Below, one piece after another: positions 6,248 through 36,179 of a stretch of 36,213 nucleotides of DNA. Made by a program: the position numbers and the translations under genes. Where the stretch lies: the NCBI GenBank assembly GCA_913053615.1, contig CAJXHA010000002.1:1-36213 (forward strand). The letters are read 5' to 3'. The stretch comes from an uncultured Bacteriovoracaceae bacterium (GTDB lineage: Bacteria > Bdellovibrionota > Bacteriovoracia > Bacteriovoracales > Bacteriovoracaceae). The stretch's first letter is position 1. Each line of letters opens with the position of its first letter. Under the pieces are notes generated by a model. The model was not told where the DNA came from. It searched no databases and worked only from the letters and a program-made list of their open reading frames with translations.

Positions 6248-7359
6248 GAAAAGACACAGCTCTCTTAGTCAACTTTGAGAATCTAAGTTATAACTTTCAA
6301 GAATTAAATAAACTAGCACCTCATAATGAGGTGCTTTTTATGATTAAAGCAAATGCATATGGAAGCGGACTAACTGAGACTTATCGTTATGCAAAGGAAG
6401 TGAATAGAATTTCTAATTTTGGTGTTGCTTCACTAGGTGAGGCAATAAAAATTCGAGAAACATATCCTAAAGATAAGACAAGTATATATGTTTTTAGTGA
6501 TCTCAACTTAGATAATCATGAGTTCATAAAGTTATATGATGAGCTAGATATTATTCCCGTTATATCAGATATGGAGAGTTTAAAAATCTATATCGAAAAA
6601 TTGAAATCAAGGCCACTTGTAATAAAGCTTAACACTGGTATGAATAGACTAGGCTTTGCAAAGAGTGAAGTTGATGAACTTATAAGTATAGTGGCGAAGA
6701 ATAATTTAAATATCTTTCACTTAATGACTCACTTTTCAAGTTCATACTTTGATGTTGATAGAGTCCAAGCAACTAGAAAGCAATATGAACTTTTTTGTGA
6801 CATTAAAAAGTCATTTCTCTCAAGTGGAGTGAGTATCCAAAATACAAGTTGTGCTAACTCTGGAGCAATTGAACAAGAGTTTAGTTTAAATGAAAACTTT
6901 ATTCGTCCAGGTCTAATGCTCTATGGGCCATATAGTGTTGGAGGTATAAAGAATGAGCCCATTAAGTGGCATGGCAAAAATATAAACTCTCTAGAAACCA
7001 GAATCATTAAAAAAACATTCTTTAAAAAAGGAACTCCTATCGGCTATGGAGGCACGGTAGTTGATGACGACTATCAAGTATTGCTCCTTCCTATAGGTTA
7101 TGGTGATGGTTTTTTGACTTATTATGCTAATGCTAAGTTTAAGCTAGAATCACAAGAGGTTAAAGTCCTTGGTAGGGTAAACATGGATATGGTTGCTCTG
7201 GGGGTAAAGGGCAGCAGTACTGGCTTTAAGCTGAATCAAAAGGTAAAAATATGGGACTTTGATCAGGCCAGTTTGATGCAATTCTCAAGATCTGTAAAAA
7301 CAATTCCCTATCAAGTAATGTGCGCCATAAGCACAAGAGTTCCTAGAATATACTTATAA
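6244..7359 (+). CDS. alr: Alanine racemase
   Basis: PLP-Lys motif MIKANAYGSG, LNTGMNRLGF, TSCANSGA, RPGLMLYG, GYGGT, GRVNMDM; overlaps upstream ORF by ATGA. Confidence 0.93.
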   Translation: MRKDTALLVNFENLSYNFQELNKLAPHNEVLFMIKANAYGSGLTETYRYAKEVNRISNFGVASLGEAIKIRETYPKDKTSIYVFSDLNLDNHEFIKLYDELDIIPVISDMESLKIYIEKLKSRPLVIKLNTGMNRLGFAKSEVDELISIVAKNNLNIFHLMTHFSSSYFDVDRVQATRKQYELFCDIKKSFLSSGVSIQNTSCANSGAIEQEFSLNENFIRPGLMLYGPYSVGGIKNEPIKWHGKNINSLETRIIKKTFFKKGTPIGYGGTVVDDDYQVLLLPIGYGDGFLTYYANAKFKLESQEVKVLGRVNMDMVALGVKGSSTGFKLNQKVKIWDFDQASLMQFSRSVKTIPYQVMCAISTRVPRIYL

Positions 7360-7401
7360 AACTTATTTTCAGATAAAGTTTATTTTTCTACAATAGTCTT
7401 C

Positions 7402-8193
7402 ATGGTTAAAGTAATTAATCGTCCTTTAGAAATGCTTGGAAGCACAGTCTTAGATTTAACTCCATCACTTGGACGCCTCACTATTTATATGATTCACGTA
7501 TTCATGTGGTTAATAAGGCCACCTTTACGTTTAAAATTATTTTTTGAACAAATGGTGTTCATGGGAAATAAGAGTTTATTCATTATTATGTTAACCTCTT
7601 CATTCTCTGGGATGGTTTTTGCTTATCAAATATATCTTGGTTTTACCGCTTTCAGTGTTGATTCATTTGTAGGTCCAATTGTTGCGATTGCTGTATGTAA
7701 AGAGTTAGCTCCTGTGTTTACAGGACTTGTTGTTGCCGGAAGATGTGGAGCTGCGATGGCCGCTCAATTAGGAAGTATGGTTGTTACTGAACAAGTTGAT
7801 GCCCTAGAGGTGATGGGTGTTAGTTCAATTCAGTATTTAGGAGTTCCTAGAGTTGTTGCAACTGTAATTACAATGCCAATGCTTGCTGCTATTTTCATGC
7901 TTATTGCTAATACTGGCTCATGGATTGTTGGGACACAATTACTTGGAATTGATGAGGCCATGTACTTTGCAAAAATATCAGACTTTATGACAGTAAAAAT
8001 GGCAATCGAAGGACTTATTAAATCTGCCATCTTTGGATATATGATTGCTATCATTGGTACTTATCAAGGCTTTCAAGTTAAGGGTGGTGCCGAAGGAGTT
8101 GGTAAGGCCACTAACCAAGCTGTGGTCTGGGGAATGGTTACTGTTCTTGTCATGGACTTCTTTTTAACAGCTATTCTGGCGAAGGTTTTATAA
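7402..8193 (+). CDS. mlaE: MlaE-family ABC transporter permease
   Basis: MlaE/YrbE hallmark: VCKELAPVFTGLVVAGRCGAAMAAQLGSMVVTEQVDALEVMG; directly followed by MlaF and MCE genes. Confidence 0.95.
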   Translation: MVKVINRPLEMLGSTVLDLTPSLGRLTIYMIHVFMWLIRPPLRLKLFFEQMVFMGNKSLFIIMLTSSFSGMVFAYQIYLGFTAFSVDSFVGPIVAIAVCKELAPVFTGLVVAGRCGAAMAAQLGSMVVTEQVDALEVMGVSSIQYLGVPRVVATVITMPMLAAIFMLIANTGSWIVGTQLLGIDEAMYFAKISDFMTVKMAIEGLIKSAIFGYMIAIIGTYQGFQVKGGAEGVGKATNQAVVWGMVTVLVMDFFLTAILAKVL

Positions 8194-8945
8194 TGAGTTA
8201 TAAAGCGTCCATCGAATTTAATAATCTTGTAAAAGAATTTGGAGATCACCGAGTATTAAATGATCTCGATTTTAATATTCATGAAGGAAAAATTACCACC
8301 ATTCTAGGTTTCTCTGGTGCAGGTAAGTCGACGCTTTTAAAACATATATTAGGAGTTCATCATCCAACTACTGGGCAGGTAAAAGTTCTCGGTGAAGATT
8401 TGAGTACTCTTAATGAGTCAAAGCTACGTGAGTTTAGAACTAACTTTGGAATGGTATTTCAGTACTCGGCTTTATTCGACTCTATGACTAACTTTGATAA
8501 TGTTGCCTTTCCGATGCGTGAGTTCACAAATATGAGTGAAGAAGAGATAAAAGAAAAAGTTCATACTCTTTTTAAACAAACTGCATTAGATGACTTTGCA
8601 ATTCATAAACTCCCATCTGAAATTTCAGGAGGGATGAGAAAGAGGGTTGGACTGGCGCGTGCTCTTGCATTGCAACCAAAAATTATGCTGTATGATGAGC
8701 CAACAACTGGATTGGATCCAATTACAACTCATATGGTTGATGATCTTATAACTTCGACACATAACAATAACTCAGATATTCCAATGACTTCTGTTATTAT
8801 TTCCCATGATATTGCAGCGACATTAAGAATCTCTGACTATGTTGCTTTCTTAGAAATGGGGAAGATGGTGGTGCACCTTCCTGTTGATGAATTTAGAAAA
8901 TCGGATCATCCAACAATTAAGAAATTTATCGAGTTATCAACTTAG
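8193..8945 (+). CDS. mlaF: MlaF-family ABC transporter ATP-binding protein
   Basis: Walker A GFSGAGKSTLL, signature SGGMRKRVGLARAL, Walker B LYDEPTTGLDP, H-loop ISHD. Confidence 0.95.
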   Translation: MSYKASIEFNNLVKEFGDHRVLNDLDFNIHEGKITTILGFSGAGKSTLLKHILGVHHPTTGQVKVLGEDLSTLNESKLREFRTNFGMVFQYSALFDSMTNFDNVAFPMREFTNMSEEEIKEKVHTLFKQTALDDFAIHKLPSEISGGMRKRVGLARALALQPKIMLYDEPTTGLDPITTHMVDDLITSTHNNNSDIPMTSVIISHDIAATLRISDYVAFLEMGKMVVHLPVDEFRKSDHPTIKKFIELST

Positions 8946-8974
8946 CTGAGTCACAAACTCAGGAAAGGATTTCC
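8946..8974 (+). other. Two adjacent small hairpins between mlaF and the MCE gene
   Basis: CTGAGT-CACAA-ACTCAG (8946-8962) immediately followed by GGAAA-GGA-TTTCC (8962-8974). Confidence 0.4.
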
Positions 8975-9046
8975 GCAATTTTTACTTTGGTAATTTCTAC
9001 TATTTTTAGGTTAGAATATTCATATTATTAATGATTTGGAGTCAGT

Positions 9047-10447
9047 TTGAACGAATTAAAAGTCGGCTTTTTAACTTTAATCGCACTAGGTAGTTTAGTG
9101 ATCGTTTCTTTAAAAATTACTGGAGATAAAGGTGGTTTTGGAGAGTACGTAGAATATAAAACAATCCTTAACGATGCGACTGGAATATATGAAAAGTCAT
9201 CAATAAAGGTTGCAGGTATTGTTGCTGGTAGAGTGAAGTCTATCAACTTAAGTGGTTCACAAGCACTTATTACTTTTGAAGTTTTAAAAGATATAAAAAT
9301 TTCTAAGATGTCTATCCTTCGAGTGAAGACTGTAGGTTTCTTAGGAGATAAGTATCTTGATATTTATCTCGGAGATCCAAGTCAACCAAGATTAAAGGCA
9401 GGTTCACTTGTTGCAAATGAAAGTGGTGCTGGTTTTGAAGAGCTTGGAAAGGATGCTTCTGAGGTCTTAAAGGATGTTAAAGCAATCGCGAAAGCTATTC
9501 GTGAAGGTTTATATGATGAAAATAAAAATAATATTGTAAAAGATATTATGGGTAATATTAAAGAGTTCTCTCAAAATGCTAAAGAGATCTCTGTTAATTT
9601 AAATGGTCTAATCAAAGATAATACAGGAAATATTAATTCTACCCTGGCTGATCTTAAAAAAGTTGCTCAACAATTACAGTATGAAACTGATCGCTATGCT
9701 GATGGCTCGCTTATGAATGATATGGAGGATTTAAAACCAATCCTTGCAAATGTCGATCGTGCAACTAGTGATCTAAAGGATATTTTAGCGGATATTAAAG
9801 CAGGGAAGGGGACAGTAGGTAAGCTTCTAAGAGATGATGAAGTAGTTGATCAAGTTAACCAAACTCTTTCAGGTGTTAATAGACTTGTTAATAGAATTAA
9901 TAATTATCGTACTAATGTTTCTATCTATTCTGGAGTTAATGATCGTTTTGGGTCAAGAACTGATCTTAATTTAGATTTAATTCCAAGCCCAGAAAGATTC
10001 TTTAAATTTGGAATCGTAATTAATGATTATGGTCCTGAAGTTTTTGATGAAACCACAACAACTACAAGTGTTGATGGTGGTTCTGAAACAGTAGAAGAAA
10101 GACGTGAAGTAAATGATTCAGCATTTAAATTTAACCTTCAAATTGGTCGTCGTATTGGTAACTTTGCATTACGTGCAGGTTTAATCGAGACAACTGGTGG
10201 TGTGGGTGTTGATTATTTATTACCTGAGTATGGCTTTAGAGCCTTTAGTGAAGTCTTTGACTATCAAGAAGATGCTGGACCAAATTTAAGGTTTGGAACA
10301 GAGATCAAAATATGGAATGTTATGTATACAAAAGTTATGGCCGAGGATGTCCTTTCAAAAACGGATGATCAGTCATATACTTTTAGTGTAGGTTTAAGAT
10401 TTACAGACGATGATCTTGCATCATTAATAGGAATATTGGCGAACTAG
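9047..10447 (+). CDS. mlaD: MlaD/MCE domain protein with putative C-terminal outer-membrane beta-barrel-like region
   Basis: TTG start; N-terminal TM plus MCE domain (VGFLTLIALGSLVIV...GIYEKSSIKVAGIVAGRVKSI...VKTVGFLGDKYLDIYLG), coiled-coil middle, C-terminal amphipathic-strand pattern after ~290 ending in VGLRF. Confidence 0.88.
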   Translation: MNELKVGFLTLIALGSLVIVSLKITGDKGGFGEYVEYKTILNDATGIYEKSSIKVAGIVAGRVKSINLSGSQALITFEVLKDIKISKMSILRVKTVGFLGDKYLDIYLGDPSQPRLKAGSLVANESGAGFEELGKDASEVLKDVKAIAKAIREGLYDENKNNIVKDIMGNIKEFSQNAKEISVNLNGLIKDNTGNINSTLADLKKVAQQLQYETDRYADGSLMNDMEDLKPILANVDRATSDLKDILADIKAGKGTVGKLLRDDEVVDQVNQTLSGVNRLVNRINNYRTNVSIYSGVNDRFGSRTDLNLDLIPSPERFFKFGIVINDYGPEVFDETTTTTSVDGGSETVEERREVNDSAFKFNLQIGRRIGNFALRAGLIETTGGVGVDYLLPEYGFRAFSEVFDYQEDAGPNLRFGTEIKIWNVMYTKVMAEDVLSKTDDQSYTFSVGLRFTDDDLASLIGILAN

Positions 10448-23195: not shown

Positions 23196-24530
23196 ATGAT
23201 CAAAATCAAAAAGGGTCTAGATCTTCCTATTGAGGGAAGCCCTGAACAAAAAATCTATGATGGTCCAAATGTTACAAAATTCGCACTCATTGGTGATGAC
23301 CTAGTTGGAATGAAACCAACTATGGAAGTTAAAGTTGGTGATCAAGTTAAGATTGGTCAATTACTTTACACTGATAAGAAAACACCTGGTATTCGTTATA
23401 CCTCACCAGCTTGTGGTGAAGTGATCGAACTTAACCGTGGTGAGAAGAGAGCTTTTCAATCAGTTGTGATTAAAGCTACTGGCGATGATCATGTTACTTT
23501 TGAAAAATACAAAGGTGGAGATGTTTCTCAATATTCAGAGCAAGATGTGAGAGACTTTCTTAATGAAGCAGGTATGTGGGCTTCTTTAAAAAGAAGACCA
23601 TACTCAAAGGTTGCTGTACTTGATGAAAAACCAAGTGCAATCTTTGTTAATGCAATGGATACTCATCCATTAGCTGCTGATCCGCAAATCGTTCTTGCAA
23701 ATCAAGACAAAGCTTTTAATAAAGGTTTAGAAGTACTTAAAAAGCTTTGTGATACTGTTTATGTTTGTCATGCAGATGGAGCGAAGGTTCCTTTTATTGA
23801 TGGTGTAAAGACTGAAAGCTTTTCAGGACCACACCCTGCAGGCTTAACTGGAACACATATTCATTTCTTAAATCCAGTTGGTGAGAGTCGCTTTGTATGG
23901 TCGACAAATTACCAAGAAGTGATTGCAATGGGGAAATTATTTGAAACAGGTCAATTATACCTTGAAAGAGTTATCTCATTAGCGGGACCTGTTGCAAGAA
24001 ACCCAAGATTAATTAAGACAAGATTAGGGGCTTCAATTGAAGATTTAACAAAAGGTGAAACTTTTGAATCTGAAGAAGTAAGACCAATTTCTGGTTCTGT
24101 ATTTGGAGGGCGTAAAGCAACTGGACCGTTTGCTTACCTTGGAAGATTTCACCACCAAATTTCATTACTTAGAGAAGGTCGTGATAGAGAATTACTTGGA
24201 TGGCATAGTCCTGGTTTTAATAAATTCTCTGTAAAGCCAATCTATGTAACTGCATTATTAAAAAAGAAGTTTGGCTTTGATACCAATGCCAATGGAAGCT
24301 TAAGATCAATTGTTCCAATTGAGTCTTATGAAAAAGTAATGCCATTAGATATTTTACCGACTCACTTACTAAGAACACTTATGAGTGGGAATACAGAAAT
24401 GGCTGCGAAGCTGGGTGCTTTAGAGTTAGATGAAGAAGATCTTGCATTATGTACTTTTGTTGATCCATCTAAGAATGATTTTGCTCCTAAACTTCGTGAT
24501 AGTTTAACGACGATAGAGAAGGAAGGTTAA
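23196..24530 (+). CDS. nqrA: Na+-translocating NADH:quinone oxidoreductase subunit A
   Basis: NqrA N-terminus [17 protein letters not shown]; followed by nqrBCDEF. Confidence 0.95.
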
Positions 24531-24531
24531 G

Positions 24532-25731
24532 ATGAAATTTCTAAGAGATTTATTAGATTCAGTTGAGCCTCAATTTCATAAAGGTGGAAAATTAGAAAAA
24601 TTATATCCACTATACGAAGCGATAGATACTTTTGCTTATACTCCAGGTGAGGTAGCACATGGTAATACTCACGTTCGTGATGGAATTGATTTAAAAAGAA
24701 CAATGATTTCAGTTGCGATCGCTCTGGGACCATGTGTACTTTGGGCATTATATAATACGGGTTACCAAGCAAACTTAGCTCTTGCTTCAAGTGGTTTAGA
24801 GGCCACTGGATGGAGAGCAGGAATCATGTCTATGATTGGTTTAGCTCATGACCCAAGTAATTTAATTTCTAATTTTGTTTACGGGTTCTTATTTTTCTTT
24901 CCTATTTTTCTTGTGACTCAGATTGCAGGTGGGACTTGTGAGATGATTTTCTCGATTGTGAGAAAGCATGAGATTAATGAGGGATTTTTAGTAACAGGTT
25001 TACTTTACCCACTAACGCTTCCTGCAACAATTCCTCTATGGCAAGTTGCTGTTGGAATTATCTTCGGTGTTGTTATTGGAAAAGAAGTTTTTGGTGGTAC
25101 AGGGAAAAATATTTTCAACCCAGCTTTAACTGCCAGAGCGTTCTTATTCTTTGCATACCCAGCACAAATTTCAGGTGATGCTGTTTGGACAGCGGTTGAT
25201 GGATACACTGGTGCTACTGCACTTGCTCAAGCTGCCGCTGGTGGTGTTGATGCAATTGGTTGGTCTTGGCAAGATGCTTTTATCGGACTTGTGCCAGGAT
25301 CTCTAGGTGAGACTTCAACACTACTTATTTTAATTGGTGCAGGTTATCTGCTTTCAACTGGAATTGGTTCTTGGAAAATTATGCTTTCAATGCTTTTAGG
25401 TATGGCCGCAACAGCTACACTTTTTAATGTTATTGGAAGTGATACTAATCCAATGTTTGCAGTTCCTTGGCACTGGCACTTAGTAATTGGTTCATTTGCA
25501 TTTGCTTGTGTGTTTATGGCAACAGATCCAGTTAGTGCTTCAATGACTCCTAATGGGAAGTTTATTTACGGATTTTTAATCGGTGTTCTAGGTGTACTTA
25601 TCAGAGTTGTTAACCCTGCTTATCCTGAGGGATGGATGCTAGCGATTCTTTTCATGAATGCTTGTTCACCACTAATTGATTATTTTATTGTAGAAAGAAA
25701 TATTAAAAGAAGGATGGCAAGAAATGGCTAA
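24532..25731 (+). CDS. nqrB: Na+-translocating NADH:quinone oxidoreductase subunit B
   Basis: FMN attachment motif [12 protein letters not shown]; NqrB membrane topology. Confidence 0.96.
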
Positions 25732-26482
25732 GGGGAATCAAGTAGGAAAAACACTATTAGTCGCAGGACTTTTATGTTTTGTTTGTTCAATTATTGTTTC
25801 GATTACAGTTGTTACGTTGAAACCTCAACAGGCCAAGAATGCTGAAATCGATTTTAAGAAAAACGTTCTTAATGCTGCTGGTATGTTAGAGCCAGGTGAT
25901 GATGTTGAAGAGAAGTTTAAGCAGATTCAAACTGTTATGGTTGATATTGAAAGTGGTACTATCACTGACGCTGTAAACCCAAAGAACTTTGATCAAAAAT
26001 CTGCTGCAGCTAATCCAAATTATTCAGTTAAGATTCCAGCGGATAAAGATGTTGCTGGTCTGAATATGAGATCTAAGTATGCAAAGGTATTCTTAGTTAA
26101 AGATGGTGATGAAGTTAAGAAAATCATTCTTCCAATCTCAAGCATGGGGTTATGGGCAAGAATGTATGGATTCATGGCTCTATCTGGCGATACGAATACA
26201 GTTGAAGGTTTTGCTTATTACCAACACGGAGAGACTCCAGGTCTAGGTGCTGAAGTTGATAATCCTAAATGGAGAAAGCAATGGGTTGGGAAAGAGATTT
26301 ATAACTCTGACTGGGAGCCGGTTGCTGGTGTTGTTAAGCAAGTAAATAAACCAGATCATCAAGTAGATGCTTTAAGTGGTGCAACCATTACTTCAAATGG
26401 TGTTGATACTTCACTAAAGTATTGGTTTGGAGAACACGGTTATAAGAAGTTTCTTGCTAACGTAAGAAATGGAGGTCTGTAA
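25724..26482 (+). CDS. nqrC: Na+-translocating NADH:quinone oxidoreductase subunit C
   Basis: FMN attachment motif [22 protein letters not shown]. Confidence 0.96.
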
Positions 26483-27102
26483 TGAAAGTAAAAGAATTAT
26501 TATTTAAACCAATTTTTAAAGATAACCCAATTGCATTACAAATTCTTGGAGTTTGTTCTGCACTTGCGGTAACAGTTCAATTAAAGAACGTTGTGGTTAT
26601 GTGTGCTGCTGTGACTTTAGTAACGGCACTATCAAACGTTGGTGTATCTTTAATTAGAAATCATATTCCAGGTAGTATTCGTATTATTGTTCAAATGACG
26701 ATCATTGCTTCTCTGGTTATTTTAGCAGAGCAATTTCTTAAAGCTTATTTATACGATCAGTGGAAAACCATGGCCGTGTACGTAGGACTAATTATTACAA
26801 ACTGTATCGTTATGGGACGTACTGAAGCATTTGCAATGAAAAATGGTCCAGTGGCAAGTTTCTTTGATGGTATTGGGAATGGTCTTGGTTACTCATTCAT
26901 TCTTATCGTTGTTGGTTTTTTCAGAGAGCTTTTTGGATCTGGAAAGATTTTTGGATTTACAGTTCTTGAAATGACTAAAGACGGTGGATGGTATCAAGGT
27001 AATGGTTTAATGCTTTTACCTCCAAGTGCCTTTATTATTATTGGTTTAATCATTTGGGCAATTAGAACAAATGATCCTTCTCAAATTGAAGAATCAAATT
27101 AG
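26482..27102 (+). CDS. nqrD: Na+-translocating NADH:quinone oxidoreductase subunit D
   Basis: NqrD-type membrane protein ([17 protein letters not shown]) in nqr order. Confidence 0.96.
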
Positions 27103-27108
27103 GAGTAG

Positions 27109-27723
27109 ATGATGTTAGAGCATTATTTAAGTATTATTGTAAAAGCTATATTTATTGAGAACCTAGCACTTTCATTCTTCTTAGGAATGTGTACGTTCTT
27201 AGCAGTATCAAAGAAAGTATCAACTGCACTTGGTTTAGGTGTTGCGGTTATCGTTGTTCAATGTGTGACGATTCCTGTGAATAACCTTTTATACACTTAC
27301 TTTTTAAAAGAAGGTGCACTTGCTTGGGCCGGTTTCCCAGAAGCAGACCTTTCTTTTCTAGGTTTAATTTCTTATATCGGTGTTATTGCAGCGATGGTTC
27401 AAATCTTAGAGATGGCGTTAGATAAATTCTTCCCAGCTCTTTATAATACTCTTGGTATTTTCTTACCATTAATCACTGTGAACTGTGCCATCTTAGGTGG
27501 ATCATTATTCATGGTACAAAGAGATTATAACTTTGGTGAATCTATTGCCTACGCATTTGGTGGTGGAATTGGTTGGGCCTTAGCAATCGCGATCTTAGCT
27601 GGGATCAGAGAGAAAATGGATTACTCTGATGTTCCTGCGGGATTAAGAGGCTTAGGAATTACTTTTATGACAAGTGGACTTTTAGCAATTGTTTTTATGG
27701 CTTTTGCTGGAATTAAATTATAG
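27109..27723 (+). CDS. nqrE: Na+-translocating NADH:quinone oxidoreductase subunit E
   Basis: NqrE-type membrane protein ([34 protein letters not shown]). Confidence 0.96.
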
Positions 27724-27732
27724 GACTAAATT

Positions 27733-28956
27733 ATGAATGAAGTAGTATTAGGAGTTGCAATGTTCACTGGGGTTATTATTGCCCTAGTAGTATTGATTTT
27801 AATCGCTAGATCTAAGCTAGTTCCTCAAGGTGACATTAATATCAATATCAATGATGAGAAAGATATTAAGGTTAGCCCAGGACAAAAGCTGCTTGGAGCA
27901 CTAGCTGGTGAAAAACTATTTTTATCTTCTGCCTGTGGTGGTGGTGGAACCTGTGGACAGTGTTTGGCCAAAGTAACTGAGGGTGGAGGAGATATCTTAC
28001 CAACAGAAAGATCTCACATTACAAATCGTGAAGCTAAAGAAGGCTGGAGACTTGCTTGTCAGGTGACTTGTAAGCAAGACATGAAAGTTCACGTTCACGA
28101 TGAAGTATTTGGTGTTAAGAAGTGGAAGTGTAAAGTTAAGTCTAATGACTCTGTGGCAACTTTCATTAAAGAGCTTGTTCTTGAATTACCAGCTGGTGAG
28201 TCAGTTCCTTTTAGAGCTGGTGGTTTTATCCAGATTGAAAGACCAGGTGGACTTAATATCGACTTTAAAGACTTTGCTGTTGAAGATGAATATAGAGAAG
28301 ATTGGGATAAGTACAATCTTTGGCAATATAAATCATATACAGATGAAGAAGTTGTAAGAGCATACTCTATGGCAAATTATCCTGAAGAAAAAGGGATTAT
28401 TATGTTAAACGTACGTATTGCAACACCTCCACCAAGAGTACCAGATGCTCCTCCAGGGAAAATGTCATCTTATATTTATAACTTAAAGCCAGGTGATGAA
28501 TGTACAATTTCTGGTCCATTCGGAGAGTTCTTTGCTCGTGATACAGATAAAGAAATGGTCTTTGTTGGTGGTGGAGCTGGTATGGCACCGATGAGATCAC
28601 ATATTTTTGATCAATTTAGAAGAATTAAAACTGATAGAAAAGTAACTTTCTGGTACGGAGCTCGTTCTAAGAGAGAAATGTTCTATGTTGAAGATTTTGA
28701 TATGATTCAAAGAGAGAATGAAAACTTTAAGTGGCATGTGGCACTTTCAGATGCTCTTCCTTCGGATAATTGGGAAGGATATACTGGATTTATCCATAAC
28801 GTTCTTTTCGAAAAATATCTTAAAGATCACCCTGCTCCAGAAGATTGTGAGTACTACTTATGTGGACCTCCAATTATGAATGAGTGTGTTATTAATATGC
28901 TCTTAGACCTTGGTGTTGAGCGTGAAGATATCATGCTTGATGATTTTGGTGGTTAA
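27733..28956 (+). CDS. nqrF: Na+-translocating NADH:quinone oxidoreductase subunit F
   Basis: 2Fe-2S motif [20 protein letters not shown] motif [13 protein letters not shown]-binding [12 protein letters not shown]. Confidence 0.97.
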
Positions 28957-29185: not shown

Positions 29186-30826
29186 ATGAAATTTATACTC
29201 CTCATTTTAGCATTATTAAGTCATTTCTCTTTTGCTCAAGATTTTGAAAATACGCAAGAAATGATTGAAATATGTTTAGAAGAGTTTGATCGTAATGAAT
29301 TACTTTTTCCTTTGATCAGTCCAGAAGGTGTTACTATTTTAGAGAGTGTAGGAACTTCAAATTATCAACTCTCAATGGATAGTAGTTTTACACAAGCTCA
29401 AGCCAATGAATTAGAAGCACTAAAAGAGCAATGTATTCAATTATTTCAAAGTCAGTTATTAATGCAATTTCAAATTGGAAGCGTTGCCGATAGTTATAAA
29501 TGTGCCACTCAAGTCCAAGCGATCTATGCTAAAGGTGATGGCCTAAACGATTTAATTGGTGATTTAAAAGATTTAACCAGTGTCATGCGAGCACAGTTCA
29601 TAGAAGATACCGATAATTGGAGTCAAGCTCGTAGAAGAAATGAGCAATTGGCCCTAAGAAATGGAAAACGTTTATTAGAAACAAACTTAGAGATCTTTAA
29701 TGAGGTAAATGACTTAGAGCCACCAGTAACGAGTGAAAATGAGTTCATGTTAAGAACAGTCAAAAACCCAGGATTAAATCCACAAAGTTTTACCCGTAAC
29801 GCTCAAGTTCTAGAGGTAATGCTTCAATGCACTTTAGATGCAAATAAAACTTCAATTAGTTCGGTTGGAATGATGAGGCCATGCCTTGAAGAGAATGGTG
29901 TAAGCTTAAGTCGTGAAGAACAAGAGTATTATCGAGGTTATAGTAATTATCTTGTAAATGCATTTAATAGTTCAGCTTTAAAGCAAGCGGTTAATGCCTT
30001 GGCTCCTGCTGCAGTTCCTAATAGGCTTATTAGTTGTAGTGGTGGGGGAAATTGTCTAGCACAATTAACCGATGAAGAGAAAAGATTAAAATTAATTCAC
30101 CTAAAAGAGCTTGCCGCTAAGATGGCCAATCCAAGTGATACGATGACTAGTGAAGAGTTTTATATTTTAAGTTCTTTTATGCCTTCGAAAAAACAGGTCA
30201 CTACTTTAATGGTAAAGGATCATAATGGAAATTACTTACCTGTAAAAGAGATGTCTCCCGGTGAAGGATTTGAAGCAAGCTTGGCCATTGGTACTAAGTT
30301 ATTTCAGGGAGACAATCGTCAACCTGAAGGTTTTATGCGTACAAATTATCATGGTGATACTGGTTTAGCGAAACAGTATTTTAAAATGGATGTGATGTAT
30401 CCTGAGAATGAATCAGAAGATAGTGAGCTTTATAGAGGAGTTCGTGAGATGCGCACCCAATTAGGTCAAAGTCGAGTGGGGCAAAGTCGCAATGGATCTC
30501 GTTTAGGTATTGGGGGACAAATACGTATTCATCCCGAAGAGGGAGGCTCTATTGGGTGTTTGATTCTACCTAATGAAGAATCAACTATGATCTCTTCAAT
30601 TGCTCATCGAGAAAATCAAAGTGGCACTATGGTGAGTAATGGTAATAACCCAAGTATGATGACAATTCCATTTGAGCTGACAGATGAGAATCTAGACTTC
30701 TTCTCACAAAAGATTCAAGACTCAAGTGGAGAAAGTGGTCATATAAAGTTTTGGAATCAATTAAAAGCACAAGAGAAAGAACTTAATTACTCTTATGCTA
30801 TACCAGTTAATCGAGTCCTTGATTAA
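29186..30826 (+). CDS. Secreted protein with L,D-transpeptidase-like (YkuD-related) C-terminal motif
   Basis: Signal peptide MKFILLILALLSHFSFAQ; QVTTLMVKDHNGNYLPV ... GGQIRIHPEEGGSIGCLILPNE resembles H..SxGC of LDT-type folds. Confidence 0.6.
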   Translation: MKFILLILALLSHFSFAQDFENTQEMIEICLEEFDRNELLFPLISPEGVTILESVGTSNYQLSMDSSFTQAQANELEALKEQCIQLFQSQLLMQFQIGSVADSYKCATQVQAIYAKGDGLNDLIGDLKDLTSVMRAQFIEDTDNWSQARRRNEQLALRNGKRLLETNLEIFNEVNDLEPPVTSENEFMLRTVKNPGLNPQSFTRNAQVLEVMLQCTLDANKTSISSVGMMRPCLEENGVSLSREEQEYYRGYSNYLVNAFNSSALKQAVNALAPAAVPNRLISCSGGGNCLAQLTDEEKRLKLIHLKELAAKMANPSDTMTSEEFYILSSFMPSKKQVTTLMVKDHNGNYLPVKEMSPGEGFEASLAIGTKLFQGDNRQPEGFMRTNYHGDTGLAKQYFKMDVMYPENESEDSELYRGVREMRTQLGQSRVGQSRNGSRLGIGGQIRIHPEEGGSIGCLILPNEESTMISSIAHRENQSGTMVSNGNNPSMMTIPFELTDENLDFFSQKIQDSSGESGHIKFWNQLKAQEKELNYSYAIPVNRVLD

Positions 30827-32221
30827 TTAGTCTTGTATGTATTTAAGATAGTCTTCGTGGACAACCGCCTCTTTGTAGGCTGCTGCGGCTTTAATGTATT
30901 TAAGCTTATAATCAAGTAACTCTAGCTTAGCATCAACTGTTTTCTGTTCTCTTAAGTTTAAGAGAATAAGATCACTATCCCCATTAAAGAACTTTATTCT
31001 TTCTGCTTTTTCTAGTTTTTGAGCATACTTAATTTCTAATTGGCTTGTTTCAATTTGTTTGGTTAGATTAAGCAATTTAATCTGCAGTTGAGAAAGGTAG
31101 TTTTTAAATTTGTCCTGATAAAAACGCTGTTCAATTTTTATTTTATCTTGTTTTAATTTACTAATTGCAAGATCTGAATCAATTTTTCTTCTTTCAATAG
31201 GTATTTCAAGATCGAGCATGATCTTTTGTTCTTCTCCACGGTAGGATTCAAGACCTTCTCCTTGGTCTTTTGCACTTGAAAGCTTTAGGTTAAGCTTGGG
31301 AAGAGTTTGGTTATCTTTAAACTCTATTTCATTTTCATACTGCTTAAGGGCCAAATCAAAAATGCGAAATTGTGGGTTTCTACTTAGGGCCCTTTCAATT
31401 TCTTGTTCAAACTGTTCACTTTTAACTTCAATCTCTTTGAATTCAAGTTTGTGATCTTTATCTTTGACTAGCTTCGTTTTACCTTGGTCATCTCTAAAAA
31501 ATAAACTTAAGTAGATTCTTGCTAGGTCTAGGTCCTGTGTTGCTTTAAGGAGTTTATTCTTTCTTTTGGTTAGGTACTGTAAGTTCTCTGTTATATAAAT
31601 GCGAGCGAGATCACCTTTTCTTGCTCTTTTTTCAATAGCTGTTTGTTGATCTTTAGAAAGCTTATACAGATCAGAGTAAACATCAGTGATTATATAATTA
31701 ATGATATATTCATAATAAGCTAATTCTGCACTTTTTAATGTCTTTAATTTCTTGCTAAGTAGTTCTGTTTTACTAATATCATTTTGTAATTGCTGGTTTT
31801 TTACTTGAAGTCGATTATTGTCAATTAAAGAGTCTCTTAGTAGAGAGAAGTTAATCCCTAGAAAATATTCCCCATCACTAAGAGTTTCATGCTCTTTTTC
31901 GTAAACGGGTATCTCTCCCTCTGAACGACGATAGCCACCTTCTAATTTAGAATTAAAGTAGGGAAGTGGTTTGACAAGTTTTAAGGATGAGTAATCACCA
32001 TCATAATATCCATCGACTCTTTGTTGTGAGTTACCAATTAATTTGGAGTCAAATGCACCTTGGTTCTTGGTGAATTTTCGACGGTTAATTTTATACTCAA
32101 CTTTTGCTTTTTGAATTTCTGGATAGTGTTTTATAGAAGAGCTTAAAACTTTTTCCAAATTCACCGCTAAAAGCGATTGAGAGTATATTAATAGGATAAG
32201 ACTACTTATTTTCAGCATCAA
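30827..32221 (-). CDS. TolC-like outer-membrane efflux protein
   Basis: Signal peptide and long alpha-helical/coiled-coil composition, paired repeats, adjacent to HlyD-like and ABC genes. Confidence 0.7.
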   Translation of the reverse strand: MMLKISSLILLIYSQSLLAVNLEKVLSSSIKHYPEIQKAKVEYKINRRKFTKNQGAFDSKLIGNSQQRVDGYYDGDYSSLKLVKPLPYFNSKLEGGYRRSEGEIPVYEKEHETLSDGEYFLGINFSLLRDSLIDNNRLQVKNQQLQNDISKTELLSKKLKTLKSAELAYYEYIINYIITDVYSDLYKLSKDQQTAIEKRARKGDLARIYITENLQYLTKRKNKLLKATQDLDLARIYLSLFFRDDQGKTKLVKDKDHKLEFKEIEVKSEQFEQEIERALSRNPQFRIFDLALKQYENEIEFKDNQTLPKLNLKLSSAKDQGEGLESYRGEEQKIMLDLEIPIERRKIDSDLAISKLKQDKIKIEQRFYQDKFKNYLSQLQIKLLNLTKQIETSQLEIKYAQKLEKAERIKFFNGDSDLILLNLREQKTVDAKLELLDYKLKYIKAAAAYKEAVVHEDYLKYIQD

Positions 32222-33242
32222 TATCCTTCCCTTTATAGTCTTCTTTTATGGCATTCTTATCTTCAAGAGATATAGGAAAACCATTTAACTTTCTCCAAAG
32301 CTCAAAGCCAATACTCACTTCATTAAGTAAAAGCCAAGAAAGAACTCTGGTTCCTTGACGAAGATATTTAGAATCTGGCCATTGTTCATCTTTATCCGGA
32401 ACGATAATCACTCTAAATTTCCCATTAGCAGAAACACTCGGGTCAGTAGATTTAACCACTCCTCCAAATGTTCCAATTGCGACTGAAGGCCATCCACTAA
32501 ATTGTACCGCAGGCCAACCCTCAAATTGTAGACGGGCTTTATCCCCAATTTGAATCAGGGGGAGATCATTTCCATCAACATAGATTTCAACCGCATTACT
32601 TTCTACTTTAGGCACAAAACTTGCTATTTTTTGATTCTTCTTCACTTGAACAGAGCCTGAACCATAAAGAACATTTAAGATAGTACCATCTCTAGGGGCC
32701 GTAATTAATTGAGTCTCTTGACGTGATAACTTTACTTCTGCTTTTGCAAGGGTTGAGGCCGCTTCAGCTTCATTTGATAATAACTTTTGATATTCAATTT
32801 TAGCTTTCTCATACTTTGTTCTAGCACTGAGACCTTGTTCATAAAGTTTCTTTTGACGATCAAAATTTATGAGTGCCGTTTCACTGGCAGCTTTATAGGC
32901 TTCATACTTCTTATAGGCAGCATCTCTTTCAAGTTTTAAACGAGTAACATAATTAGGGTCATTATCAACAATCTCTACAATAGGATCACCTTTTTTTACA
33001 AATGCTCCGTCAGAAATAAACCATTGATTTATTCTTCCATCAACAGTGGCATTGATAGACTGAATTCGATCATTAGGACTAAAGGCAATCACTTTTCCAC
33101 TTCCTTGAGAGGTCTGAACCCAAGGAACAAATGTGAGAATAATAATTAAAGAGATAAAAAAGAAAAATAAAATTCTATTTAAAAATAATTGCCACTTAGG
33201 GATATAGAGAGATCTTAAAATTTTACCTTTATTACTAAGCAT
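32202..33242 (-). CDS. HlyD-family membrane fusion (periplasmic adaptor) protein
   Basis: N-terminal TM, lipoyl/barrel pattern (VDGRINQWFISDGAFVKKGDPIVEIVD ... ITAPRDGTILNVLYGSGSVQVKKNQKIASFVP), coiled-coil hairpin. Confidence 0.85.
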   Translation of the reverse strand: MLSNKGKILRSLYIPKWQLFLNRILFFFFISLIIILTFVPWVQTSQGSGKVIAFSPNDRIQSINATVDGRINQWFISDGAFVKKGDPIVEIVDNDPNYVTRLKLERDAAYKKYEAYKAASETALINFDRQKKLYEQGLSARTKYEKAKIEYQKLLSNEAEAASTLAKAEVKLSRQETQLITAPRDGTILNVLYGSGSVQVKKNQKIASFVPKVESNAVEIYVDGNDLPLIQIGDKARLQFEGWPAVQFSGWPSVAIGTFGGVVKSTDPSVSANGKFRVIIVPDKDEQWPDSKYLRQGTRVLSWLLLNEVSIGFELWRKLNGFPISLEDKNAIKEDYKGKDIDAENK

Positions 33243-34850
33243 TTAAGACTCCTTATCCAGATCTATTAACTCAAAGCTCTCACAAGCACTTACTGTACAA
33301 GTAGAAATGACACCAATTCGATTTTCTTTTAAAAGATCTATTATCATATTACGCTCTCTCTCTGAGAAAACTTTAAATGTTGGGGTAAGAACCAGAAAAA
33401 GTGGTCTAAAGAGGATGGCACGTATTATCTCTAGTTTAAGAATACTCTTATAGCTTAATGGTGAACCATCAGAATTTAATGTTGTTTGCAGGCCTTGATC
33501 AAGAATTGCAATGGAATTATCTAGTTCTATCTTTTCTAAAAGTTCATTGAGAAATTTCACATCAATATCTTCTTTTAATAATAAGTTCTCTTCAATACTG
33601 GCCCTAATAATTTCAGGTCTCTCTAAGAGGTAAAAATTTCGAATCATCAGATAATCAGTGCGATCGATATCACTGATACACTTAATATGAAAATGACCTC
33701 TTACTATTCGACGATAACCTTTAAGAAGTGCAATAAATGTATTGATCTTCGCATTGTCCTTAGAGGTTATTAAGTAATAATTATGAGGCTCTAATTGAAA
33801 ATTAAATGTGTAGATCTCACCAGAGTTATTTTTAACTTGTAATTCATTAAGGTGAATACGATTAGACATAATAATCGAAGACTCAGTATCTTCAATTTCA
33901 TAAAAGATATTTAATTTATCTAGGGCCGCAGTTAAGTCATACATTTTTTCTAAGATTTTTCCAAACTTAGTTAAACTCGTTAGAATCAGAGTCACGATAA
34001 TTTCAGCAGCTACTAATTGTCCCATGGATAATTGTCCAATAACAACTAGATAACCACCTACACCAAGAACAAAGGCACTTAAAAAAGCATAGAGGATAAA
34101 GAGGCCCATAATCTGAGAGAAAAGATAACGGAAGTGAGTCTTTCTCGCTTTGAGGTATTGAAAAGTATACTCCTCTGACTTTGTTAGTGCAAAACTCGCA
34201 TGTCTTCTAAATAGTGTGTGAATACGACTAATTTCATTAATCCAATTTCCCATATCATACTTTGCATAAGACTCATTGATAGCGGATTTAATAGCGGCTT
34301 TTCCTAGTAGCTTCCAGATTAAAATTAATGAGACGATCAGTATTAAATCAAAAATTAAGAAGTATGGGTGATACAATGAAATAAGTATCATACCAACAAA
34401 TAATTGGAGTGAAATGAAAACTCCGTCAGAAAGAATAGTCGTCATACTTTTTTGAACTGTCATAATGTCATAGTAACGATGACTTAAGTTATTCTGGTTT
34501 ATTTTATTAAGCTTTTTAATATTACTGCTAAGAATTTTTTCTACAATGGTTAAACTCATCTTTGCAAAGAAATGCTGTTGAAAAAACTCGAGAGTCTTTA
34601 AAAGCAAAGCATTTAAGAAAACATTTATTCCAAGGATAAAGAGTAGTAAAAAAGAAAGGACAATAATAGGTTGAAGTAAAACGCCAAAAGTAACCGTATT
34701 AACTAAGCTTTGCACTGATACTGGTATTGCCAGAGAGATTAAACTTAGAAAGATCGATAAAATGATAACAGAGCTATAATAAGGCCTTTCTGACTTTAAG
34801 AGCTTCCAAACTATTTCAAAGTAATTTTTTTCATTATTCATAAGACTCAC
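33243..34850 (-). CDS. ABC exporter-like protein with intact TMD but degenerate nucleotide-binding domain
   Basis: Six-TM ABC exporter-type N-terminus; C-terminal NBD scaffold (ASIEENLLL, QGLQTTLNSDGSPLSYKSILKLEIIRAILFRPLFLVLTPTF) lacking Walker A, LSGGQ, Walker B D/E and H-loop His. Confidence 0.75.
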   Translation of the reverse strand: MSLMNNEKNYFEIVWKLLKSERPYYSSVIILSIFLSLISLAIPVSVQSLVNTVTFGVLLQPIIVLSFLLLFILGINVFLNALLLKTLEFFQQHFFAKMSLTIVEKILSSNIKKLNKINQNNLSHRYYDIMTVQKSMTTILSDGVFISLQLFVGMILISLYHPYFLIFDLILIVSLILIWKLLGKAAIKSAINESYAKYDMGNWINEISRIHTLFRRHASFALTKSEEYTFQYLKARKTHFRYLFSQIMGLFILYAFLSAFVLGVGGYLVVIGQLSMGQLVAAEIIVTLILTSLTKFGKILEKMYDLTAALDKLNIFYEIEDTESSIIMSNRIHLNELQVKNNSGEIYTFNFQLEPHNYYLITSKDNAKINTFIALLKGYRRIVRGHFHIKCISDIDRTDYLMIRNFYLLERPEIIRASIEENLLLKEDIDVKFLNELLEKIELDNSIAILDQGLQTTLNSDGSPLSYKSILKLEIIRAILFRPLFLVLTPTFKVFSERERNMIIDLLKENRIGVISTCTVSACESFELIDLDKES

Positions 34851-36179
34851 TTATTTAATACTAACTGTTTTTATATTAACAAACTCTCTTATGCCTTCTT
34901 CGCTGAGTTCTCTACCAATACCTGAAAGCTTTTCTCCGCCAAAGGGGAGGCGAGGGTCACTTTTCACAAAGTGATTAACAAAGACAGAGCCAGCTTGAAG
35001 TTCATTAATAAAATACTCAATGCACTCTTCATTTTTTGTGAAGATAGCACTACCAAGTCCAAATTCAGATAAGTTGGCAAGGATAATGGCCTCATCACTA
35101 TTTTTAAACTTTGAAACAACAGCAACTGGTCCAAACATTTCCTCTTTAAAGGCAGTATGTTCTGGAGTTACATCTTTAAGTATGGTTGCAGGGTAATAGG
35201 CAGATTCTTCATTTGTTATTTCACCACCTATAACAAGCTTTGCACCTTCTTGGATGGATTGAATTACTTGTTGATGGATATCATCACGAAAATCTTTAGA
35301 GGCCATAGGACCTAATTCTTTCTGCTTAGTTTGAGAAGTTAATTTCTCTATAAATGAATCATAAATTGTTTCTTGAACCAGTAGTCTTTTAGCAGCAATA
35401 CAGCTTTGACCACAATTTAGAAATCTTCCCTGAACGATATTTTCAACAGCATCATCAAGATCTGCATCTTCAAAAACGATATATGGGTCAGAACCACCAA
35501 GTTCTAGGACGGTACTAATCAGTTTTTTAGAAGTTTGTTGAATGACCTTTAACCCCGCTGGAGTCGAACCGGTTAAGCTCACTCCTTGAATTAATTCAGA
35601 CTCTAGAACAGATTCCATGTTCTTACCACTCACTAAGAGTGTTCTAAATATATCTGCTGGTGCATTTATGGACTTAAATAATTCTTCAATGGCGAGAGCA
35701 CAACCTGAAACATTAGAAGCATGTTTTAAGAGAGCAGTGTTACCACTAGCAATACAAGGAGTGAGAAAACGAAAGACCTGCCAGAAAGGAAAGTTCCAAG
35801 GCATAATTGCTAGGTGTACTCCTTTTGGTGAGTATCGAATAAAACTCTTAGAGGCATCAGTTTTTATGGTTTTATCTGCTAGAAAAGTCTTCGCGTTCTC
35901 AGCATAATAGCGACAAACCCAAGCACACTTTTCGATTTCGCCTACGCCTTCACTTTTTAATTTACCCATCTCATTATGCATAAGCTCAGAAAGCTTTTCT
36001 TTTTCTTTCTCTAATTGATCTGCGAGTTGATTTAATAATTTTGAGCGTTCTGTATGAGTGCTCTTTTTCCATTGTTCAAAACGATGATGTGATTTTTGAA
36101 TAATTCCCTTAATCTCATCCTGATTCATCTCTTGGAAAGTATTAATGACTTCTAAATTATGTGGATTTACAGACTTCAT
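34851..36179 (-). CDS. Aldehyde dehydrogenase (succinate-semialdehyde dehydrogenase-like)
   Basis: IMPWNFPFWQVFRFLTPCIASGNTALLKHAS, LELGGSDPYIVFEDADLD, FLNCGQSCIAAKR, MFGPVAVVSKF. Confidence 0.93.
   Translation of the reverse strand: MKSVNPHNLEVINTFQEMNQDEIKGIIQKSHHRFEQWKKSTHTERSKLLNQLADQLEKEKEKLSELMHNEMGKLKSEGVGEIEKCAWVCRYYAENAKTFLADKTIKTDASKSFIRYSPKGVHLAIMPWNFPFWQVFRFLTPCIASGNTALLKHASNVSGCALAIEELFKSINAPADIFRTLLVSGKNMESVLESELIQGVSLTGSTPAGLKVIQQTSKKLISTVLELGGSDPYIVFEDADLDDAVENIVQGRFLNCGQSCIAAKRLLVQETIYDSFIEKLTSQTKQKELGPMASKDFRDDIHQQVIQSIQEGAKLVIGGEITNEESAYYPATILKDVTPEHTAFKEEMFGPVAVVSKFKNSDEAIILANLSEFGLGSAIFTKNEECIEYFINELQAGSVFVNHFVKSDPRLPFGGEKLSGIGRELSEEGIREFVNIKTVSIK

Follow-up and report, generated by a model that had tools for sequence, protein, structure and literature searches.

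The window, i.e., the whole stretch of DNA that was analyzed, comprises 36,213 nucleotides and is one entire contig of an uncultured Bacteriovoracaceae bacterium. The genome is 81.6% complete; most genomes with which it was compared are metagenome assemblies. On the minus strand a close-packed run of genes reads aldehyde dehydrogenase (ALDH), ABC-like, HlyD-like, and TolC-like; the view ends upstream of ALDH. The ABC-like open reading frame (33243-34850, minus strand) codes for 535 aa. Its GTG start is located immediately past the ALDH stop codon, and an in-frame ATG is found three codons 3' of the GTG. The genes for the adaptor and the TolC-family protein share a 20-nt overlap. The features, with the evidence for each, are:

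33885..34850, minus: transmembrane domain (TMD) of a type IV ABC exporter, residues 1-322 (Pfam ABC_membrane, AlphaFold2 [AF2] fold, conservation across the states of the nucleotide-binding domain [NBD])
33246..33884, minus: pseudo-NBD, i.e., NBD-like without ATPase motifs, residues 323-535 (AF2 NBD fold, motif loss, purifying selection in relatives)
33735..33770, minus: degenerate Walker A, ITSKDNAKINTF (alignment)
33576..33602, minus: ASIEENLLL, retained, equals the usual TIxENxxL of exporter NBDs (alignment)
33417..33464, minus: degenerate signature, SPLSYKSILKLEIIRA (alignment)
33375..33398, minus: degenerate Walker B/catalytic Glu, FLVLTPTF (alignment)
33279..33308, minus: H-loop position without His, ISTCTVSACE (alignment)
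32202..33242, minus: periplasmic adaptor (HlyD/MacA/RND-type membrane fusion protein), one TM helix, short α-hairpin (Pfam/NCBIfam, AF2, VIA-align, conserved beside the ABC gene)
30827..32221, minus: TolC-family outer membrane factor (Pfam OEP, 5e-20; conserved third gene)
34851..36179, minus: ALDH abutting the cassette (Pfam; neighbor not conserved)

ALDH was considered as a cassette member and rejected; it probably stands outside because it is not a conserved neighbor. Near the cassette, on the plus strand, the window carries an nqrA-F operon for a sodium-pumping NADH:quinone reductase (23196-28956). A sodium gradient kept by the organism could in principle power export. Convergent with the cassette is a plus-strand gene for a secreted protein of 546 aa (29186-30826), the C-terminus of which shows a weak YafK/LdtF-like match (L,D-transpeptidase or DpaA).

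An exporter fold without ATPase motifs

The sequence-only reading had claimed a recognizable TMD and NBD scaffold from which all four catalytic motifs are gone. Both halves of this claim are borne out. The TMD matches Pfam ABC_membrane with an E of 6.7e-6, just short of the curated cut-off; ABC_tran was not reported in the Pfam search of the protein. NCBIfam type I exporter models align over both TMD and NBD, and in a phmmer search of the PDB the alignment with ABC exporters spans the full length of the protein. In this alignment the Walker A slot is occupied by ITSKDNAKINTF and the signature slot by SPLSYKSIL. In the family alignment the Walker A Lys is replaced by Ile and the Asp-Glu pair of Walker B by TP, and the H-loop is without His. 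Thus, the window protein has neither a Walker A GxxxxGK[ST], nor LSGGQ (it reads PLSYKSI), nor the Walker B/catalytic Glu, nor the H-loop His of an active exporter.

The AF2 monomer (53 family members; pLDDT 87.6) displays the complete exporter fold, i.e., a six-helix domain-swapped TMD and an NBD, as compared by Foldseek/VIA-align. The closest solved structures are TmrAB (Z 27.4) and HlyB (Z 26.4, rmsd 2.9 over 526 residues), with TmrB as the top fold match. SbmA structures are not among the fold matches listed, which has no bearing on membership. A second, hidden Walker motif was not seen in the protein. By predicted fold the window protein is a type IV ABC exporter half with the ATPase motifs missing, and a folded rather than scrambled NBD is predicted.

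No second copy of the protein occurs in its genome, in which two other PF00664 exporters (C41 and C88) with canonical motifs were found. Homologues at 28-48% identity occur across Bdellovibrionota, and wherever the genes are intact and the contig extends far enough they stand in a trio with HlyD and TolC. A search for related loci with the single window protein as a query found none; an alignment of the adaptor as a query succeeded and yielded at least 533 loci in 84,980 species genomes. The best 80 of these at least 533 loci belong to Bdellovibrionota, Alpha- and Gammaproteobacteria, Myxococcota, and Verrucomicrobiota; plasmids contribute members from Sphingomonadales and Bacteroidota. Taken together the trio recurs in Bdellovibrionota, Sphingomonadales, Legionella, Myxococcota, Verrucomicrobiota, and Bacteroidota, which agrees with the earlier claim that the cassette goes with HlyD and TolC. 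A description of this exporter family was not found in the open-access papers searched.

Among 112 scored loci Walker A is kept in 23, an NBD-like domain without Walker A is present in 79, and the NBD is absent in 10; these proportions are biased, 80 loci being the nearest to the window family, and are not population frequencies. Walker A is absent, then, in 79/102 NBD-bearing homologues. About nine of the 23 Walker-A-bearing loci retain Asp-Glu and His as well, and LSGGQ was found in no family member among the 112. Mapped onto the trait-independent adaptor tree, the presence of Walker A changes state at least 8 times and that of the NBD at least 4 times. The closest relatives are likewise motif-less, and near-intact forms are confined to more distant clades. 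The loss is a trait of the family and not a defect of one strain; chance is excluded because dozens of orthologues show the identical loss.

Purifying selection acts on the dead NBD, though this domain is less conserved than the TMD. Its dN/dS according to Nei-Gojobori, with some dS saturated, is about 0.1-0.4 in most close pairs and ranges from 0.10 to 0.60 among motif-dead pairs. These values are <1, yet they usually exceed that of the TMD. In canonical MsbA-like exporters from the same genomes the NBD is the more conserved domain (64 vs. 50% for the TMD; 269/276 pairs). In the window clade the order is inverted: 26% for the NBD vs. 48% for the TMD, the NBD being higher in 0/36 pairs.

Two observations concern the genes around the cassette in relatives. 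A LysR-type regulator recurs near its 5' side, upstream of the ABC gene, in about 25/111 loci (e.g., L046:9207-10091, L100:3471-4322) and could point to an inducing compound. Genes for the inorganic carbon pump DabA-DabB adjoin the cassette in L043, L046, L050, L076, L100, L106, L109, L111, L114, L132, and L139, i.e., in Bdellovibrionota, an Oligoflexia MAG, Legionella, and one Sphingobium. Over the phylum as a whole, DabA mostly resides elsewhere in the genome, away from the cassette. As a functional link for the window cassette DabAB was dismissed: the adjacency is real in some lineages, and DabA was not found in the 81.6% complete window genome.

Loss of the nucleotide-binding domain in relatives

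The adaptor is present in 73/369 genomes of the phylum. About 28/369 genomes encode a TMD-only protein of 281-316 aa, an intact open reading frame with its stop at the start of the adaptor gene. One single-contig genome (G185) possesses such an NBD-less cassette together with a second, full-length, motif-dead one. Four genomes carry a single-chain TMD-HlyD fusion of 668-701 aa without an NBD. In the NBD-less proteins tested no significant Pfam match (E below 0.001) was obtained. The coordinates are:

L061:7504-8376, L028:1378-2310, L196:1486-2346, L057:7955-8905: NBD-less membrane proteins without Pfam match
L206:1893-3938, L207:529-2535, L208:1730-3835, L209:1732-3780: single-chain fusions of NBD-less TMD and HlyD adaptor

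Apparent NBD-less matches in L041, L063/L178, L050, and L065/L205 were left out as contig-end truncations or broken or duplicated frames. A 595-aa open reading frame in L049 was discounted because of an opposite-strand overlap. An ABC-F and a small ABC ATPase near L061 were rejected as partners; they were not seen beside other NBD-less cassettes. At L065:7050-7938 (G025) the TMD gene extends over two neighboring frames (146 and 151 aa), either a sequencing error or a genuine split TMD. In L056 (G123; 7187-9107) a TMD is fused to the start of HlyD and the remaining HlyD is in fragments, a degraded cassette on a large contig.

The cytoplasmic loops TM2-TM3 and TM4-TM5 carry the coupling helices. 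Measured between conserved anchors they have 66 and 46 residues in almost every protein with an NBD, whether or not its motifs are dead, vs. 53-58 and 27-39 residues in the NBD-less proteins (28/29). The periplasmic spans are equal in both groups. The coupling-helix residues N124, R125, and W203 are present in 73/78, 76/78, and 76/79 motif-dead proteins and in 1/29 NBD-less proteins each (Fisher p 4e-9 on all such columns, uncorrected for relatedness). Since full-length loops and coupling residues are kept in motif-dead proteins, the pseudo-NBD of the window protein probably still docks. Conversely, with trimmed docking loops and lost coupling residues most NBD-less members cannot use an NBD in trans via the usual interface. 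In the TMD-HlyD fusions the loops are close to full length, which suggests a more recent loss of the NBD. These sequence comparisons give good support for a cassette that is functional in several lineages with no ATPase docked to it.

Energy source and alternative explanations

The TMD residues P43, Q47, E88, D128, H161, K197, G265, G277-Q278, E283, and E301 are invariant and specific to the family, and P43, Q47, E88, D/E128, H161, K197, R236, F240, G265, G277-Q278, and E283 are fixed across all NBD states. Five carboxylates are conserved in 28-29/29 NBD-less proteins and in 12/12 members of the window clade. At positions 88, 283, and 301 of these five, and at 193, canonical exporters of the same genome have no acidic residue. 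The conserved charged residues occur in members with a near-intact NBD as well; consequently, they did not arise in response to NBD loss and may have a role in binding the substrate or the adaptor.

We propose, with a probability of about 0.5, that the window protein forms the inner-membrane part of a tripartite exporter (TMD, adaptor, and TolC) which is widespread, ABC-derived, ATP-independent, and driven by an ion gradient. ATP independence of the cassette is well supported by the comparisons above; by analogy, the energy source is probably an ion gradient. The ancestor would have been an ATP-driven export machine of which membrane channel, adaptor, and outer-membrane exit were kept while ATP hydrolysis was lost. 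In the window clade the motif-less pseudo-NBD, folded by prediction, probably serves as a structural or gating element because the coupling-helix residues for docking stay conserved. In other lineages the NBD was dropped, the docking loops were trimmed, and some TMDs were fused to the adaptor, the periplasm-facing surface and the fixed charged TMD residues being retained throughout. The TMD dimer would alternate access by coupling to a H+ or Na+ gradient, with the carboxylates E88, D/E128, E193, E283, and E301 as candidate coupling residues, and would hand over a substrate of small or medium size to the conduit of adaptor and TolC. Ion-driven export is suggested because the analogous systems run on ion gradients. 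MsbA-MD and LmrA-MD do so without NBDs (PMC4979069, PMC6155054), and SbmA/SLiPT are natural proton-driven NBD-less importers with an ABC fold in which the coupling helices were lost as well (PMC13316013). For the ABC relatives of SLiPT a partial ladder of the same kind, already in place, is reported (PMC13316013). Against an ion-driven exporter count the location of E283 near the periplasmic end of TM6, which leaves an ion relay in mid-membrane conjectural, and the fact that no substrate-like gene was seen among the linked genes, i.e., the recurrent cassette neighbors.

The sequence-only reading had offered three options: an active partner, an ATP-independent conduit, or another energy source. 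The latter two remain; a partner ATPase is argued against. An ATP-independent scaffold or passive conduit, in which the TMD holds the adaptor-TolC channel in place or acts as a gate for facilitated export that follows a concentration gradient downhill, would agree with the TMD-HlyD fusions and with top-conserved TMD features that include the periplasmic end (P43, Q47, YHP, GG, GQ), as expected for adaptor docking or gating. However, a full six-helix TMD and the buried or cytoplasmic charged residues E88, D/E128, K197, and H239 are kept everywhere, and for a pure anchor one helix would suffice, which the adaptor already has. We consider it rather unlikely. Heterodimeric exporters with degenerate sites such as TmrAB, TM287/288, and CydDC are common, and the window genome has at least two canonical exporters (C41, C88) with which the protein might pair or by which, or by an NBD encoded elsewhere, it might be energized. 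Yet among 111 loci the cassette has no recurrent neighbor that is a second exporter gene. Further, two chains build each ATP site, one with its Walker A/B and the other with its signature; since the window protein lacks all of these, both composite sites would be damaged, and the NBD-docking loops are deleted in NBD-less relatives. This makes an active partner improbable.

Could the pseudo-NBD bind a nucleotide or another ligand without hydrolysis and act as a regulator or sensor of the pore? Purifying selection and the retained docking surface would fit, but the window clade has kept neither the P-loop glycines nor the Lys, and other lineages do without the domain, so that such a role is quite doubtful. 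Finally, lost motifs are compatible with a decaying pseudogene whose frame is open by chance, a possibility already disfavored by the sequence-only reading. It is practically excluded by selection and recurrence: the dN/dS of the dead NBD stays low (0.60 at maximum), the loss is shared by many lineages, and the operon is conserved.

If the ion-driven tripartite exporter is correct, the family may be a second natural case, independent of the first, in which an ABC exporter switched from ATP to an ion gradient, here as a tripartite export engine with every step still alive, a proposal we put forward tentatively. The living steps would lead from a near-intact NBD via a motif-dead NBD to no NBD with trimmed coupling loops and to a TMD fused to the adaptor. 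ATP hydrolysis is the defining trait of ABC transporters; here a large natural family repeatedly dropped hydrolysis and kept the rest of a three-part pump. It shows that a TMD can work uncoupled from ATP and provides a graded series for an experimental test of the energy switch inferred for SbmA. Since the genes carry the annotation of ordinary ABC transporters, both what powers them and what they do have probably been mis-assigned. The NBD-less membrane proteins without Pfam match could serve to build a new family model.

Comparison with known systems

With HlyB-HlyD-TolC and PrtDEF the cassette shares the type IV exporter fold from end to end (HlyB, Z 26.4) and an operon with adaptor and TolC; it differs by the absence of ATPase motifs, by a MacA/AcrA/EmrA-like adaptor, and by relatives in which the NBD is missing. 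The earlier designation as type-I-secretion-like therefore stands in part. Exporter, adaptor, and TolC genes are together, but the adaptor is not of the long-hairpin HlyD type. Its hairpin helices, 98-135 and 141-176, comprise 38 and 36 residues, and the closest structure is MacA (AF2, VIA-align). Because the adaptor with its short hairpin resembles the MacA/AcrA/EmrA efflux adaptors rather than HlyD, efflux of small or medium-sized compounds is suggested and not secretion of large RTX proteins.

TmrAB, TM287/288, and CydDC are alike in fold and in a degenerate NBD, yet in those exporters one composite site still works and a partner gene exists. Neither was seen in the window family, and no adjacent partner half-transporter gene recurs in the examined loci. 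LmrA-MD and MsbA-MD are ABC membrane domains which move substrate on ion gradients without an NBD (PMC6155054, PMC4979069); those are laboratory truncations, whereas here natural genes are concerned. For HlyBD2-OMP2 from Blastomonas fulva T2 the available part of the report gives the gene order and similarity to proteins from Novosphingobium aromaticivorans (PMC9505733). This description, rather than a sequence comparison, suggests that it is of the same family as the window cassette. In that part of the report it is treated as an ordinary ABC pump, without mention of motif loss (PMC9505733).

SbmA/BacA (SLiPT) are alike in that an exporter TMD is without a working NBD and that the NBD-less relatives have lost or shortened the coupling-helix loops (PMC13316013). 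SbmA has neither NBD nor coupling helices; the window protein keeps both, and the NBD-less relatives have no NBD and shortened docking loops. Pfam SbmA_BacA has no match in the window protein, the NBD-less relatives, or the window genome. The five conserved carboxylates of the window family are candidate counterparts of the ladder of glutamates along the SbmA cavity. The window family differs further by six helices without an extra TM0 pair in the model, by tripartite export with adaptor and TolC, and by intermediates with a dead NBD which still exist. The best reading is that of an ABC-derived exporter convergent with the SbmA/SLiPT importers, with living intermediates of NBD loss.
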